A stretch of DNA of 33,514 nt from Microtetraspora fusca. Its GTDB lineage: Bacteria; Actinomycetota; Actinomycetes; Streptosporangiales; Streptosporangiaceae. The stretch spans positions 1 through 33,514 of the forward strand of contig NZ_BBYK01000089.1 in assembly GCF_001570365.1 (NCBI RefSeq). The letters are read 5' to 3'. This document shows, piece after piece, positions 1,085 through 7,819 of the stretch (positions within the stretch are counted from its first letter, which is position 1; the number at the start of each line of letters is the position of its first letter). The notes below the pieces were generated by a model. The model made no database searches. It saw only the letters and a program-made list of their open reading frames with translations, and had not been told where the DNA came from. The position numbers and the translations under genes were made by a program.

Positions 1085-1116
1085 ACACCCACGTACCGAG
1101 CGTGGCACGTGGGTGT
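1085..1116 (-). terminator. terminator of the metM-metO operon
   Basis: ACACCCACGT (1085-1094) pairs perfectly with ACGTGGGTGT (1107-1116) across a 12-base loop, starting 17 bases after the metO stop codon. On the minus strand the stem is followed by TTTGC, so it resembles a weak intrinsic terminator. Confidence 0.8.
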
Positions 1117-1133: not shown

Positions 1134-1409
1134 TCAGCCGCCGGCGACCGCGGGGATGACCGAGATCTGGATGCCCTCGGGGGTCGCAGTGTCCAGCCCC
1201 TCGGCGAAACGGACGTCCTCTTCGCCGACATATACGTTGACAAAACGCCGGATCTTGCCCGCTTCATCGAGGATGCGGGCGCCGATGCCGGGATAGTCGG
1301 CGTCGAGCTTCTGCAGCACCTCGCGAAGGGTTCCGCCTTCGCCGGACACCTCCGCGGCTCCGCCCGTGTACGTGCGAAGAATCGTCGGAATCCGCACAGA
1401 TACGCTCAT
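1134..1409 (-). CDS. metO: CysO/ThiS/MoaD-like sulfur-carrier protein, probable MetO
   Basis: A 91-residue ubiquitin-fold sulfur carrier. The N-terminal VSVRIPTILRTYTGG, the middle RRFVNVYVGEEDVRF and the terminal VIPAVAGG closely resemble mycobacterial CysO. The protein ends exactly in Gly-Gly, which is adenylated and converted to a thiocarboxylate in this family. The gene starts 38 bases after the threonine-synthase-like gene and shares its terminator, so the two form an operon. No cysM or mec protease gene accompanies it, unlike mycobacterial cysO. In Streptomyces a carrier next to a threonine-synthase homologue (MetO with MetM) has been reported to donate sulfur to O-phosphohomoserine, giving homocysteine. 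The same role is inferred here. A role in cysteine synthesis with a distant CysM remains possible. Confidence 0.88.
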   Translation of the reverse strand: MSVSVRIPTILRTYTGGAAEVSGEGGTLREVLQKLDADYPGIGARILDEAGKIRRFVNVYVGEEDVRFAEGLDTATPEGIQISVIPAVAGG

Positions 1410-1447
1410 TTTTCGCTCACTTTCGTTGCTTCGTCGGTAAAACGCGG

Positions 1448-2710
1448 TCAGTTGGCGAAAGCCGTACGGAATGCCGCGAGGGAGGGGCGGATGACCGCGG
1501 CGGGCCGAGCCTCGGCCGCGACGGCGTCGAGCGTCTTCAGCCCGTCGCCGGTGTTGAGCACGACGGTCTCGGCCTCGGGGTCGAGCAGGCCGTTCTCGGC
1601 GAGCTTGCGCAGCACGCCGACGGTCACGCCGCCGGCGGTCTCGGCGAAGATGCCCTCGGTGCGGGCCAGCAGCCGGATCGCCTCGACCACCTGGCCGTCG
1701 GTCACGTCCTCGACCGCGCCGCCTGTGCGCCGCGCGATGTCCAGCACGTACGGCCCGTCGGCCGGGTTGCCGATCGCCAGCGACTTGGCGATGGTGTCCG
1801 GCTTGACCGGCTGGACCACGTCGTGTCCGGCCTTGTACGCGCCGGAGACCGGCGAGCAGCCCTCGGCCTGGGCGCCGAAGACGCGGTAGGGCTTGTCCTC
1901 GACCAGCCCCAGCTTGATCAGCTCACGGAAGCCCTTGTCGATCTTGGTGAGCTGGGAGCCGGAGGCCACCGGGATCACGATCTGGTCGGGGATCCGCCAG
2001 CCGAGCTGCTCGGCGATCTCGTACGCCAGCGTCTTGGACCCCTCGGCGTAGTACGGCCGGAGGTTGACGTTGACGAAGCCCCACTTCTCACCGAGCTCGT
2101 CGCCGATCAGCTCCGAGCAGAACCGGTTGACCTCGTCGTAGGTGCCGTCGATGGCGACCAGGCGGCCGCCGTACACGGAGGCCATGGTGATCTTGGCCGC
2201 TTCGAGGTCGGAGGGGATGAACACGCACGAGTCGAGCCCGGCGCGGGCCGCCGCGGCGCCGACCGCTCCGGCGAGGTTGCCGGTGGAGGAGCAGGAGAGA
2301 GTGTGGAAGCCGAAGTTGCGTGCGGCCTCCAGGGCGATCGCCACCACCCGGTCCTTGAAGGAGTGGGTGGGGTTGCCCGAGTCGTCCTTGACGTACAGCG
2401 AGCGGAGGCCCAGCTCGGCGGCGAGGGTGTCGGCCTTGACCAGCTTGGTCCAGCCCGGCTGGAGGTTGGGCCGGGTCTCGACGTTCGCGGGGACGGGGAG
2501 GAGCTTGCGGTATCGCCAGATGTTGGTCGGGCCGGCGGCGATCTCCTCGCGGGTCACCGGGCCGAAGTCGTAGGCCACCTCAAGCGGGCCGAAACACTCG
2601 ATACAGGCGAAGATCGGGCCGAGGTCGTAGCGGGTGCCGCACTCACGACAGGAAAGAGCGGAGGCGGGACCGAAGTCGAGAGTGGTGTCTGCAGTGCTTG
2701 CGAGCGCCAT
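1448..2710 (-). CDS. metM: threonine-synthase-like PLP enzyme, probable MetM (homocysteine from O-phosphohomoserine)
   Basis: A 420-residue fold-type II PLP enzyme closely matching threonine synthase. It has an N-terminal four-cysteine zinc-ribbon-like element (CREC at 21-24, CIEC at 36-39), the PLP lysine in NPTHSFKDR (Lys119) and the SSTGN loop. Sequence alone would name it ThrC. Two context facts argue for methionine synthesis: a SAM-I riboswitch directly upstream, and a co-transcribed sulfur-carrier gene. Both fit the MetM/MetO route in which O-phosphohomoserine is diverted to homocysteine. The ATG at 2708-2710 is chosen because the in-frame ATG at 2729-2731 lies inside the riboswitch P1 helix; the SD GAGGGAAAGG sits between them. 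A separate true thrC should exist elsewhere in the genome if this reading is right. Dual activity cannot be excluded. Confidence 0.85.
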   Translation of the reverse strand: MALASTADTTLDFGPASALSCRECGTRYDLGPIFACIECFGPLEVAYDFGPVTREEIAAGPTNIWRYRKLLPVPANVETRPNLQPGWTKLVKADTLAAELGLRSLYVKDDSGNPTHSFKDRVVAIALEAARNFGFHTLSCSSTGNLAGAVGAAAARAGLDSCVFIPSDLEAAKITMASVYGGRLVAIDGTYDEVNRFCSELIGDELGEKWGFVNVNLRPYYAEGSKTLAYEIAEQLGWRIPDQIVIPVASGSQLTKIDKGFRELIKLGLVEDKPYRVFGAQAEGCSPVSGAYKAGHDVVQPVKPDTIAKSLAIGNPADGPYVLDIARRTGGAVEDVTDGQVVEAIRLLARTEGIFAETAGGVTVGVLRKLAENGLLDPEAETVVLNTGDGLKTLDAVAAEARPAAVIRPSLAAFRTAFAN

Positions 2711-2726
2711 GAAGCGAGGCCTTTCC

Positions 2727-2862
2727 CTCATCTTCGCTCGTGGCCACCCTGGTCACGAGCCGGAATTGGCACCTGTCCCGGCCGGCCTCGTGGTCACGAG
2801 TACGGGCACCGGGAGGGTTGCCGGGGCTTCGCAGGGCCGGTCCCTCCACCCCTCTGGATGAG
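2727..2862 (-). promoter_or_regulatory. SAM-I (S-box) riboswitch upstream of metM
   Basis: Read on the minus strand, the element starts CTCATCCAGAGGGGTGGAGG, continues with GGACCGGCCC, GAAGCCCCGGCAACC (the kink-turn and SAM-binding core) and GGTGCCAATTCC, and closes with GATGAG. The outer CTCATC (2857-2862) pairs with GATGAG (2727-2732) to form P1. These are the diagnostic conserved blocks of the S-box family in the right order. The GATGAG strand of P1 runs directly into the GGGAAAGG ribosome-binding site of metM, and I see no T-tract terminator after it, so control is probably at translation initiation. High SAM should switch the operon off. Confidence 0.93.
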
Positions 2863-3663: not shown

Positions 3664-5091
3664 ATGAGCAGCAACGTGCTGATCGCCTCCAATCGGGGGC
3701 CCGTCTCGTTCACTCTGTCGGACGACGGCGCGCTGACCATGCGCCGCGGCGGCGGCGGCCTCGTGTCCGGCCTGTCCGAGGCGTTCAAGGACTCGGACAT
3801 GCTCTGGGTCTGCGCCGCGCTCTCCGACGGCGACCGCAGCGCCGTACGGCTCGTGCCGGGCGGGCGGCTCGACCGGGCGGGGTACGACGCCGGGCGGCTG
3901 CGGATGCTCGACATCCCCCCGGCGACCTTCCAGCGCGCCTACAACGCGATCGCGAACTCGACCCTGTGGTTCGTCAACCACCTGCTCTACAACACCCCGA
4001 ACAGCCCGATCTTCGACCGGCGCTTCCGCCGGGAGTGGGCCTCCTACCAGGAGTACAACGGGGCGTTCGCCCTCGCCCTGGCCGAGGAGGCCGCGCACGG
4101 CGCCAAGGTGATGATCCAGGACTACCACCTCACCCTGGCTCCGGCCATGCTCCGGGTCGAGCGGCCGGACCTGCGCATCTCCCACTTCTCGCACACGCCC
4201 TGGGCCCCGCCCGAGTACTTCTCGCTGCTGCCCGACGACGTCGCCGCCGAGGTGCTGTGCGGCATCCTCGGGGCCGACCACGCCGGGTTCCTCACCGCGC
4301 GCTGGGCGGACGCGTTCATGGACTGCTGCGCCGCCATCCTGGAAGCGCGAGTGGACCGGGCCGCGCGTACGGTCACGCACGAGGGCCGGACGACGCGCAT
4401 CGGGGTGCACGGCCTCGGCGTGGACGGCGCGGCACTGCGGGCCAGGGCGGCCGAGCCGGACGTGGAGGCGCGCCTGACCGCGCTCAGGGAGCAGGTGGGC
4501 GACCGGCGGCTCATCGTCCGCATCGACCGCACCGAGCTGTCCAAGAACATCGTCCGCGGCCTGATGGCCTACAGCGAGTTCCTGGCGGAGCACCCCGAGT
4601 GGCACGGCAAGGTGGTCCACCTCGCCTTCGCCTACCCCTCACGTCACGACCTGCCGGAATACCGCGAGTACACGGCGGCCGTGCAGCGGTGCGCCAAGGA
4701 GATCGAGGACGCCTACGCCACCGACGACTGGGATCCGCTCATCCTCAACGTGAACGACGACTACCCCCGGTCGCTCGCCGCGTACCGGCTGGCCGACGTG
4801 CTGCTGGTCAACCCGATCCGCGACGGCATGAACCTGGTCGCCAAGGAGGGCCCGATCCTGTCGCCGCGCTGCGCGCTGGTGCTCTCCCGGGAGGCGGGGG
4901 CCGCCGCCGAACTCGGCGCCGACGCGCTGCTGGTCAACCCCTTCGACATCTCGGGCACCGCGGCCGCGCTGCACGAGGCGCTGATCATGCCCGACGCCGA
5001 GCGCGGGGAGCGGTGCGCCCGGCTCCGCGCGGCGGCCACCGCGCTCCCGCCCCGGCTGTGGCTGGAGGAGCAACTCGGCGCTTTGTCGTGA
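3664..5091 (+). CDS. otsA: GT20 trehalose-6-phosphate synthase family protein
   Basis: A 475-residue retaining glycosyltransferase of family GT20, the usual length. It has the N-terminal SNRGPVSF and glycine loop [11 protein letters not shown] (27-37), IQDYHL (151-156), [10 protein letters not shown] (177-186) and the nucleotide-sugar motif [11 protein letters not shown] (386-396). The expected reaction is transfer of glucose from UDP- or GDP-glucose to glucose 6-phosphate. The motif that is DRLDYSKG-like in E. coli OtsA here reads DRTELSKN (288-295), so this belongs to a divergent actinobacterial clade. A phosphatase gene (otsB, 6986-7819) lies nearby on the other strand, which supports trehalose synthesis. 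Glucosylglycerol-phosphate synthase or a pseudo-glycosyltransferase are alternatives. A -10-like TAGGGT (3650-3655) eight bases before ATG suggests a leaderless or very short-leader mRNA. Confidence 0.85.
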
Positions 5092-5155
5092 CTGTCGGCC
5101 GCTGATCACAGGTGATACGGTCTGCCTCGTTTCGCACGAAAGCGGGGATCAGGGC

Positions 5156-6331
5156 GTGACGACCGTCGCGGCAGCCAGGCTCGCCAGGGATCGGCCCACC
5201 TGGCTGATCTACCTCCAGCTCGCCACCTTCGCCACGTACCTCTACGGACTCTCGGCCGCGCTTCCCATGATCAGGGCGGAGCTCGGCGTCTCCCAGGCCG
5301 CCGCCGGGCTGCACGGCACCGCCATGGCCGTCGGCGGGATCGCCGCCGGGCTGGCCCTGCCCGCGCTGACGTCGCGGTTCGGACGACGGGCCGCCACGTG
5401 GGCGGGTCTCGCGGGCATGAACATCGGCATGGTCACCGTGGCGCTCGGCCACGCCCTGCCCGTGACGGTGCTGGGCTACCTGTTGGCCGGCGGATCGGCC
5501 TCGGTGTCGCTCTACGCCGCGATGGCGGTCCTCAGCGACCACCACGGCGCCGCCGGGCCCGCCGCCATCAGCGAGGCCAACGCCGTCGGGGTCACCTCCG
5601 GCATCGCCGTCTCGTACGTGTTCAGCCTGGCGGCCGACTCCGCGCTGGGGTGGCGCTCGGCGCTCTACATCCCGGTCGTCGCGACCACGGTCCTCGCGCT
5701 GGCCATGGGCCGGGTCTGGGTTCCCGCCCCCGCCCCCTCGCCCGCGCCGGCGCCGGTCCCGTCCGCCGGGGCGGAGCGCAGGCCGTACGGCTGGCGCTTC
5801 CACACGGCCGGCGCGGTCCTGTTGTGCTGCGTGGCCCTGGAGTTCACGTTCAACCTGTGGGCCGCCGAGCTCCTCGCCCAGCGGACCGGCCTCACGGTGG
5901 CCCAGGCGACCACGGGGCTGTCCGCGATGCTCGCCGGTGTCGCCGCCGGGCGGTTCGGCGGCGCCCGGCTCGCGCTGCGCCACCCGGCTTCGGCGGTGCT
6001 GCTCGGCGCGCTCGCGGTGACCCTGGCCGGGTGGACGATCTTCTGGACGGCCACGGCGGTCCCGGTCGCCTACGCCGGGCTGGCGCTCAGCGGTCTCGGC
6101 ATCTCGGTGCACTTCCCGCTGGCCCTGTCGCGGGTCATCGCCGCGTCGGGGGGCCGCCCCGACGCGGCGTCCGGGGCCGCGTCGATCTGGGGAAGCCTGG
6201 GCTCCGGAGGCGGGCCGTTCGTCCTCGGCGCCCTGGGCGACGGGTTCGGCACGCACACGGCGTTCCTGCTCGTCCCCGCGCTGATCCTGCTGGCCTGCGG
6301 CGGGATCCTCAGCTCCAGGTCGCCTGCTTGA
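5156..6331 (+). CDS. MFS transporter
   Basis: A 391-residue, strongly hydrophobic protein with about 12 membrane segments. An MFS-type cytoplasmic loop (TSRFGRRAATWAG) follows the second helix, and a Pro/Ala-rich central linker (VWVPAPAPSPAPAPVPS) separates the two six-helix halves. The substrate is unknown; the overall pattern fits a small-molecule exporter or sugar-efflux type. The GTG at 5156 follows GGGGATCAGGG. The stop codon lies inside the 3' end of the convergent secreted-protein gene (23-base overlap). It sits between otsA and otsB, but nothing in it shows a link to trehalose. Confidence 0.85.
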   Translation: MTTVAAARLARDRPTWLIYLQLATFATYLYGLSAALPMIRAELGVSQAAAGLHGTAMAVGGIAAGLALPALTSRFGRRAATWAGLAGMNIGMVTVALGHALPVTVLGYLLAGGSASVSLYAAMAVLSDHHGAAGPAAISEANAVGVTSGIAVSYVFSLAADSALGWRSALYIPVVATTVLALAMGRVWVPAPAPSPAPAPVPSAGAERRPYGWRFHTAGAVLLCCVALEFTFNLWAAELLAQRTGLTVAQATTGLSAMLAGVAAGRFGGARLALRHPASAVLLGALAVTLAGWTIFWTATAVPVAYAGLALSGLGISVHFPLALSRVIAASGGRPDAASGAASIWGSLGSGGGPFVLGALGDGFGTHTAFLLVPALILLACGGILSSRSPA

Positions 6332-6905
6332 GGATCGCGGACAGGCCCGGCGTGTTCCACTGGTCGACGAACAGGATCTTCGACGTGGGCAGGAACCACT
6401 CGCGCTGCGTGAAGCGCGCCTTGTTCTTGTACGTCTTCGGAGACACGCACCTGGCCGACCAGGCGCGATAGTACGCCTTGTGGCCGCGGCCGACCTGGGC
6501 CAGCCCCTTGTCCGCGAGGGTCATCGGGCCGAGCCACAACTTCTTGTCGTACGGGCAGGGGCCGACGTCGTTGGCCGGATAGAAGGGCTCGTCCGGCGTG
6601 TACGCGTCGAAGTGCTCGTGCCCGACCTTGATCGCCTCGGGGCCCATGACCCAGAAGCTGCGGCATCCCGAGTCGCGGAAGCCGAACCGGGAGGTGCCCG
6701 CCGTCGGGCACGCGCCGGTCACGACCCGGGTCCAGTCCTTGTCGACCGTGTACACCTTCCAGGTCGTGGGGATCCGCAACGTCAAGCCCGCGCGCACACG
6801 CAGTTCCTTGGTGCCCTGCGCGGAGGCGGACGCGGCCGAGGGGAGGGACAGTGCGGCGACTCCGGCGAGCCCGGCCGCGACCATCGCGATCGCTCTTTTA
6901 TCCAT
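6309..6905 (-). CDS. secreted protein of unknown function with four cysteines
   Basis: A 198-residue protein with a clear Sec signal peptide (charged MDKR, hydrophobic core to residue 22, cleavage predicted after ASASA near residue 29). The mature part is Trp/Tyr-rich with four cysteines (66, 81, 117, 153), enough for two disulfides. No membrane anchor or sortase signal follows, so it is probably released. I do not recognise the family. The start is the ATG at 6903-6905, because the signal peptide begins there; the longer in-frame extension upstream is Arg-rich and unlikely. Its last 23 bases overlap the 3' end of the convergent MFS gene. Confidence 0.75.
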   Translation of the reverse strand: MDKRAIAMVAAGLAGVAALSLPSAASASAQGTKELRVRAGLTLRIPTTWKVYTVDKDWTRVVTGACPTAGTSRFGFRDSGCRSFWVMGPEAIKVGHEHFDAYTPDEPFYPANDVGPCPYDKKLWLGPMTLADKGLAQVGRGHKAYYRAWSARCVSPKTYKNKARFTQREWFLPTSKILFVDQWNTPGLSAILKQATWS

Positions 6906-6985
6906 GACCGGAAAGCGTAGGTGTGAGCACTTGCAGTTCGATTTGAGGCGGTTCGCCGGGCCGTCCAGCGGGTGCGCGCGGTACG

Positions 6986-7819
6986 TCAGCCGATCCGGGA
7001 CGCGAGCGCGCCGAGGAACCGTACGACGCCATCGGGGCCGTCCACGACGGCGTCGGCGTGCTCGACCAGCCGGGTGACCTCGGCCGAGCCGCTGCACACC
7101 CGAACCCCCGGCAGGCCGCAGGTCGCCACCGCGTCGAACGCCGCGATGTCGCCGAGGTCGTCCCCGAAGAACATGACGGAGCGCGCCGCGCGCTCGGCGA
7201 GGAACCCGCGCAGGGCCCGCCCCTTGTCCATGCCGGGCGGCCGCAGCTCCAGGACCAGCCGTCCCGGCTCGACGATCAACCCGGAGGCCGCGGCCAGCTT
7301 CGCCACCGGCTCGCTGAGCGCCAGCAGCGCCCCCTCGGGGTCGGCCGCCGTCCGGGTGTGCACGGCCACCGCCCGGCCCTTGTCCTCGATCAGGACGCCG
7401 TCGAGACCCCGTGTGACCGCGGGCAGCTCGGCGCGTACGCGGTCGAGGCCGGGCGGCGGGGGCGGGGCGGTGACCTCACCGCGCTCCCATCGCTCCATGC
7501 CGTAGTGGCCGAGGACGACCAGCCCGGGCACGTCGGCGAGGGACGGGCCGTCGGACGCCTCGCCGAGAGCGAGCGCCTGGAGGGGCGGGCGGCCGGTCAC
7601 GATGACGACCGAGCGCACCAGCCCGCCGAGCCGTACGAGCACGGCGGGGGCGTCGGGGTGGATCCGGGCGGACGCGGGGTCGGGCACGATGGGCGACAGC
7701 GTGCCGTCGAAGTCGAGGCCGATCACCACCCCGGACGGGTCCTCCAGCACGGCGGCCAGCCCGGCGCGCCCGGTCTCGGTCCTGATCAGCGCCTCGACGG
7801 GCGTCGTCTCATCTGACAT
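6986..7819 (-). CDS. otsB: trehalose-6-phosphate phosphatase
   Basis: A 277-residue HAD-superfamily phosphatase. Motif I is DFDGTLSPI (nucleophile Asp36, acid/base Asp38), motif II lies in VVIVTGR, the motif III lysine is in MDKGRALRGF, and the metal-binding motif IV is FFGDDLGDIAAF. The order and length are typical of OtsB, which dephosphorylates trehalose 6-phosphate to trehalose in the cytoplasm. It lies about 1.9 kb from otsA on the opposite strand, so the two are clustered but not co-transcribed. Confidence 0.93.
   Translation of the reverse strand: MSDETTPVEALIRTETGRAGLAAVLEDPSGVVIGLDFDGTLSPIVPDPASARIHPDAPAVLVRLGGLVRSVVIVTGRPPLQALALGEASDGPSLADVPGLVVLGHYGMERWERGEVTAPPPPPGLDRVRAELPAVTRGLDGVLIEDKGRAVAVHTRTAADPEGALLALSEPVAKLAAASGLIVEPGRLVLELRPPGMDKGRALRGFLAERAARSVMFFGDDLGDIAAFDAVATCGLPGVRVCSGSAEVTRLVEHADAVVDGPDGVVRFLGALASRIG

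Follow-up and report, generated by a model that had tools for sequence, protein, structure and literature searches.

The homocysteine synthase MetM of Streptomyces albulus is reportedly paired in function with a sulfur carrier, MetO. MetM was identified as the Streptomyces homocysteine synthase by Hasebe et al. (2024, Appl Environ Microbiol 90:e01247-24), as cited in PMC12172450, and the passages of PMC12172450 considered here describe it as converting O-phosphohomoserine to homocysteine. According to the same passages, S. albulus metM has an upstream S-adenosylmethionine (SAM) riboswitch, unlike the cyanobacterial gene, and the gene adjoining the cyanobacterial thrC resembles S. albulus metO. 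We analyzed a 33,514-nucleotide stretch of Microtetraspora fusca DNA (contig NZ_BBYK01000089.1, hereafter the window), in which a SAM-I riboswitch, a threonine-synthase-like gene (metM) and a sulfur-carrier gene (metO) follow one another on the minus strand. This arrangement matches by description that of S. albulus, including the position of the riboswitch upstream of metM, in an organism of another genus and family (Streptosporangiaceae). The locus is very probably a MetM/MetO homocysteine operon under SAM feedback, as the original prediction had proposed; this reassignment is supported by the results below, is most likely right and has been published for a related lineage. The pathway and its SAM riboswitch are thus already known and are credited to the 2024 Streptomyces work, of which the locus is a real and well-conserved further example. 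We add the tight co-distribution of riboswitch and gene, a corrected gene start, a residue signature and lineages lacking an adjacent metO. These four additions were not found in the open-licence literature searched, and Hasebe et al. (2024) may contain some of them.

A second described case comes from Streptomyces lividans TK24, for which passages of PMC8079986 (2021) place RF00162 before SLIV_16930-SLIV_16925, with the function given as 'Threonine biosynthesis'. The same riboswitch class precedes a two-gene transcript, as here, but those passages do not connect the transcript with methionine, unlike our reading. Judging from its annotation and position, SLIV_16930 would be metM.

The draft genome measures 9.02 Mb in 108 contigs and is 99.23% complete; its contig 88 is the window. 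Read on the minus strand from 2864 to 1085, the window carries the riboswitch, metM, metO and a hairpin, in this order. The covariance model RF00162 matched 2864-2725 (minus strand) over model positions 1-108 of 108 with 72.4 bits (gathering threshold 44.4; E 2.8e-15), and this full-model score above the threshold assigns the element to the SAM-I (S-box) riboswitches. The predicted S-box aptamer was therefore recovered well above the Rfam threshold, and it is the single RF00162 match in the whole genome. The open frame of metM spans 2731-1448 on the minus strand. Its relatives share a start at the ATG 2710-2708, which is separated from the aptamer by 14 nt and gives a product of 420 aa (1448-2710, stop codon included). 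A start at 2731 was rejected since it falls inside the aptamer and the relatives use 2710.

The product of metM, a fold-type II pyridoxal phosphate (PLP) enzyme and proposed O-phosphohomoserine-dependent homocysteine synthase, scored 275.1 bits against TIGR00260 (thrC; cut-off 167.1), in agreement with its earlier description as threonine-synthase-like. Its best matches among solved structures, by both sequence and structure, are threonine synthases, as would be expected for a descendant of the ThrC fold. The predicted structure (mean pLDDT 77.9, pTM 0.76, from 24 rows) adds little beyond the sequence. Microtetraspora niveoalba encodes a MetM that shares 98% identity with that of the window, and orthologues from Streptomyces share 76-80%. 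A canonical thrC is present elsewhere in the genome, at C45:246554-247546, where it adjoins a gene for a thrB-type homoserine kinase; its product shares 36% identity with MetM (35% over 326 columns). The second thrC whose search had been suggested was therefore found. MetM was rejected as the canonical ThrC of this genome, as the other gene fills that place and both the residues and the tree differ. At L030:7372-11363, where thrC and thrB are adjacent, the next gene upstream weakly matches glycosyltransferase models (below cut-offs) and not homoserine dehydrogenase.

We aligned 27 MetM sequences (the window and 26 diverse loci from 24 families) with 21 canonical ThrC sequences (the genome's own and 20 others) and a stretch of Thermus thermophilus ThrC. 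In 48/48 sequences, the PLP lysine was kept (K61 in T. thermophilus, K119 in the window). Forty-five positions were at least 90% fixed in both groups and yet different between MetM and ThrC. Among residues present in 21/21 ThrC, T. thermophilus T88 corresponds to L146 in MetM (27/27), S155 to N216 (26/27), R160 to Y221 (27/27), N188 to S250 (27/27) and R242 to A312 (24/27). Conversely, R218 and K309 are invariant in 27/27 MetM, and ThrC has N, and T or S, at these places. In T. thermophilus ThrC, several of the residues lost in MetM presumably bind the phosphate of the substrate. In a 24-member MetM alignment, the N-terminal part has four invariant cysteines. The tree of the 27 MetM and 21 ThrC sequences united the MetM sequences on a single branch 2.2 substitutions per site long (support 0.79); ThrC was scored as not monophyletic, which we take as a rooting effect, the T. 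thermophilus sequence being in the root set. MetM thus shares the fold and PLP lysine of threonine synthase ThrC, and unlike it has 45 group-specific positions, a four-cysteine N-terminal part, a riboswitch and a carrier neighbor.

That neighbor, metO (1409-1134, minus strand, stop codon included), encodes a ThiS/MoaD/CysO-like sulfur carrier of 91 aa with the C-terminus PAVAGG. It scored 53 bits against Pfam ThiS (cut-off 22.5), and its best solved-structure match is 3dwg_C, which we take to be CysO of Mycobacterium tuberculosis. The predicted CysO-like gene ending in Gly-Gly is thus confirmed. The expectation that automated annotation would call the pair thrC and moaD held for the first gene, which passes TIGR00260, and was only partly borne out for the second, which falls below the NCBIfam MoaD and SAMP1 cut-offs and passes Pfam ThiS. 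Among the 80 nearest relatives, MetO ends in AGG in 61, in AGGC in 14 and in other short extensions in 5. The 19/80 MetO proteins with residues beyond Gly-Gly (14 end in GGC) would need trimming before thiocarboxylation.

A further related system is Mec-CysO-CysM cysteine synthesis, with which the locus shares the carrier fold with its Gly-Gly motif and a fold-type II PLP partner. It differs in that MetM is ThrC-like and not CysM-like, and in that metO, flanked by metM and a cold-shock gene, has neither CysM nor a Mec-type gene beside it. A set of this kind lies at a separate locus of the same genome (L031), which encodes a Prok-JAB (Mec-like) protease, a CysO-like carrier and a CysM-like synthase. 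This CysO-like carrier (L031:6260-6538, minus strand) is 55% identical to MetO and ends in Gly-Gly-Ala-Arg. Cysteine and homocysteine therefore probably each have a carrier-based sulfur route of their own in this organism. A protein combining ThiF and rhodanese domains, presumably the combination found in MoeZ, is encoded elsewhere in the genome.

We then looked for other routes to homocysteine in this genome. MetA, searched in the genome of M. fusca only, had no match there, and HcyBio had none in the same genome. No protein of the genome exceeded the MetX cut-off, the best reaching 155.9 bits of the 500 asked for. This MetX-like protein was rejected as MetX, as it fits NF005757 better (547 bits), and it is probably another alpha/beta hydrolase. 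The draft genome therefore has no recognizable acyl-homoserine route, a supporting observation and not a required one, and the complete metX/metY set that the original prediction had named as the counter-case was not found. PF01053 gave eight matches, six of them above the cut-off and four strong. One of the four strong proteins passes a cystathionine gamma-synthase model, as taken up below; the other three stayed below every one of the 25 curated cut-offs listed per protein.

The arrangement is well conserved. We examined the best 80 of 582 MetM relatives in named genomes (76-98% identity), which are the closest relatives only. All 80 have RF00162 above threshold before metM, and all 80 have a metO-type carrier gene after it, with an end in Gly-Gly or Gly-Gly plus one or two residues. 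For a broader view, 197 genomes of the class were evenly drawn, with a completeness of at least 95% asked for. At a threshold of at least 500 bits (lowest accepted hit 512.6, next hit 245), MetM was found in 131/197 genomes. RF00162 was found at 138 places in 135 genomes, 134 of them above the cut-off, in a search with stricter filters that may lose weak matches. Each of the 131 MetM genes had RF00162 on the same strand, 14-282 nt (median 41) before the start of the MetM match. Hence, 131/138 RF00162 places are at metM and 7 are elsewhere, one of the latter below the gathering score. Some of the 131 riboswitches are near the threshold, with 44.7-49.1 bits in five genomes of family f14. Near four of the places away from metM, a simple gene caller with Pfam identified genes for a peroxiredoxin, a GNAT acetyltransferase and an oxygenase-like protein and one gene without a match. 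At L172:94-928, the RF00162 match lies about 100 nt upstream of the AhpC/TSA peroxiredoxin gene, and the same genome carries a riboswitch-metM as well.

With the thrC product of M. fusca as query, canonical ThrC was present in 131/131 genomes with MetM (E < 1e-120), and 5/66 genomes without MetM had no strong match. MetX, called by NF001209 above its cut-off, was found in 125/197 genomes, that is in 63/131 with MetM versus 62/66 without it (Fisher p 2.5e-11, a value that is overstated as the genomes are related). Seen from the other side, 68/72 genomes without MetX have MetM; the other four lack both, and one of these four carries a truncated match to MetX where a contig ends. The window's family had MetM in 20/20 and MetX in 7/20 sampled genomes, and family f14 had MetM in 19/19 and MetX in 16/19. 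MetM and MetX are thus partly, and not strictly, exclusive.

The leader suggests how SAM might act on metM. The expression platform (2711-2735, minus strand) was delimited by leader comparison and folding, and its function is proposed on that basis. In the window, the 3' strand of helix P1 is GAUGAGG (2732-2726) and is followed by a Shine-Dalgarno-like GGGAAAGG at 2727-2720. In folding, CCUCGCUUC (2719-2711) can pair with the 3' side of P1, leaving GAAAGG in the loop. In 81 close leaders (the window and the 80 relatives), 13-18 nt separate the aptamer from the first ATG. In the diverse leaders, the distance from the aptamer to the first in-frame ATG or GTG is 6-18 nt (26/26). A terminator would not fit into so short a gap, and control of metM by the riboswitch is therefore most likely exerted at translation. 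Some diverse leaders (L132, L140) have a Shine-Dalgarno-like GAGGAG that directly overlaps the 3' strand of P1. The motif CYUC occurs between P1 and the ATG in 81/81 leaders, and in the unconstrained fold of the window's leader it is base-paired to the 3' strand of P1. We mimicked the SAM-bound state by making the P1 strand unavailable in the folding of these 81 leaders as short RNAs. The 7 nt after the P1 strand were more open with the strand free in 76/81 leaders (mean 0.85 vs 0.63), and this result, which is only a calculation, supports SAM as an off-signal. We infer the direction and level of the switch as follows. When SAM is plentiful, the P1 helix of the aptamer would form and cover or abut the ribosome-binding site before the metM start, which would lower translation of metM, and of metO if the two are coupled. 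When SAM is scarce, the 3' strand of P1 would pair with the downstream CCUC, placing the ribosome site in an open loop.

Homocysteine is the precursor of methionine, and its synthesis is the step at which we place the operon. The RNA element, the gene order, the paralogy with thrC, the lack of a recognizable acyl-homoserine route and the co-distribution are all observed directly, and we infer the substrate and the sulfur donor of MetM. MetO would first receive its sulfur as a thiocarboxylate at the C-terminus, with the ThiF-rhodanese protein as the probable charging enzyme. The PLP enzyme MetM, diverged from threonine synthase, would then swap the phosphate of O-phosphohomoserine for the sulfur of MetO to yield homocysteine.

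Several points weigh against this proposal. The presumed phosphate contacts of ThrC are changed in MetM, so that the phosphate would have to be held differently if O-phosphohomoserine is the substrate. Almost half of the MetM genomes (63/131) also have MetX. One strong PF01053 protein of M. fusca scores as a cystathionine gamma-synthase (674.3 bits against NF005871, cut-off 513). The folding shift is modest and comes from short RNAs, the openness of the start codon is unchanged (0.63 vs 0.62), and the unconstrained fold of the whole leader lacks the aptamer fold and is no better than shuffles (z -1.14; 25/200 as good). The metO gene is adjacent in 19/26 diverse loci (24 families) and was not found within about 1 kb downstream in 7, and tblastn detected no metO in 20 further 3' flanks (16 from f14, 3 from f12 and 1 from f30), of which one is only 96 nt and four others are 429-1067 nt long. 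Finally, the passages of PMC12172450 considered here report that a Microcystis ThrC with 51.6% identity to S. albulus MetM makes threonine, and that this homologue, which has a metO-like neighbor and lacks the riboswitch, appears not to act fully as MetM. The Microcystis case calls for caution in naming by homology.

These points bear on three other explanations. MetM could be a second threonine synthase, regulated by SAM through happenstance, for instance to divert O-phosphohomoserine at low SAM. The TIGR00260 score, the threonine synthases that head the structure matches and the activity of the 51.6% identical cyanobacterial homologue (PMC12172450) would all fit. We nevertheless regard this as highly improbable: a canonical thrC stands beside thrB here and canonical ThrC occurs in every one of the 131 MetM genomes, 45 positions fixed within each group differ between them, MetM is tied to the absence of MetX and not of ThrC, and a SAM shut-off of threonine synthesis would make hardly any metabolic sense. 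It is also improbable, slightly less so, that homocysteine arises mainly from O-phosphohomoserine and cysteine through the cystathionine gamma-synthase-type protein and a lyase, with MetM/MetO as an auxiliary. Plants make homocysteine in this manner, and a protein above the NF005871 cut-off is encoded in the genome. However, the gene directly upstream of it encodes a cystathionine beta-synthase (TIGR01137 653.5 bits, cut-off 510.25), an order that would be expected for reverse transsulfuration; neither a MetA match nor a MetX above cut-off is there to supply acyl-homoserine, and the gamma-synthase-type gene has no RF00162.

The remaining alternative concerns only the donor: MetM would make homocysteine with sulfur not from MetO alone but also from the CysO thiocarboxylate, held in common with cysteine synthesis, or from free sulfide. 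The 55% identity between the genome's own CysO and MetO speaks for it, as do the lineages that combine riboswitch and metM without an adjacent metO. Against it, metO follows metM here and in all 80 nearest relatives, and the two are said to be a functional pair in S. albulus, whose system has metO as a carrier-family gene in the passages of PMC12172450 considered here. For the locus in M. fusca, we consider a shared donor unlikely and retain MetO as the carrier of a SAM-controlled homocysteine operon.

Outside the nearest relatives, the question takes another form. The seven diverse loci without adjacent metO belong to families f7, f9 (two loci), f12, f14, f28 and f30; a strict pattern search and then tblastn gave the same 19/26. 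Together with the further flanks, the loci that have riboswitch and metM without an adjacent metO are L125, L126, L127, L130, L132, L143 and L144, and L176-L195. All genomes without an adjacent metO have kept the riboswitch at metM. MetX was present in 4/7 genomes of the loci without metO versus 8/19 with it, so that the absence of metO is not clearly tied to MetX. We tentatively suggest, as a possibility somewhat short of probable, that in several actinobacterial families a riboswitch-controlled MetM without a neighboring metO takes its sulfur from CysO or free sulfide and that what stays constant in the system is the riboswitch, not the carrier gene. At the f9 and f12 loci, the place of metO after metM is taken by a cold-shock gene.

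A cold-shock gene (874-569, minus strand) also lies downstream of metO in the window, and a cold-shock-domain gene occurs within 1.5 kb downstream of metM in 69/73 loci (of the 80, those whose downstream sequence reaches 1.5 kb or more). Between metO and this gene, an inverted repeat with 13-nt arms at 1085-1097/1104-1116 would form a hairpin with a 6-nt loop (1085-1116, minus strand). The surrounding stretch folds better than shuffles (z -2.55; 5/200 as good). The hairpin of the single terminator that had been predicted is therefore present, but it lacks a T-run, and a scan for intrinsic terminators gave no hit, making it a possible terminator only. The scan for sigma-70 promoters also found none. 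Upstream of the riboswitch is a gene for a sigma factor carrying Pfam regions 2 and 4 (3574-3011, minus strand). Farther upstream, 3664-7819 holds a trehalose-phosphatase gene (above cut-off) and a gene of glycosyltransferase family 20 whose product resembles trehalose-phosphate synthase and scores below the OtsA cut-off.

If CysO does serve MetM in the lineages without metO, cysteine and methionine synthesis would be coupled through one carrier. More generally, automated annotation of MetM as threonine synthase (TIGR00260) would give actinobacteria dependent on MetM the appearance of lacking homocysteine synthesis. The riboswitch, present at 131/131 MetM genes, offers an easily recognized sequence mark by which to tell MetM from true threonine synthase and to help correct gene names and metabolic models.

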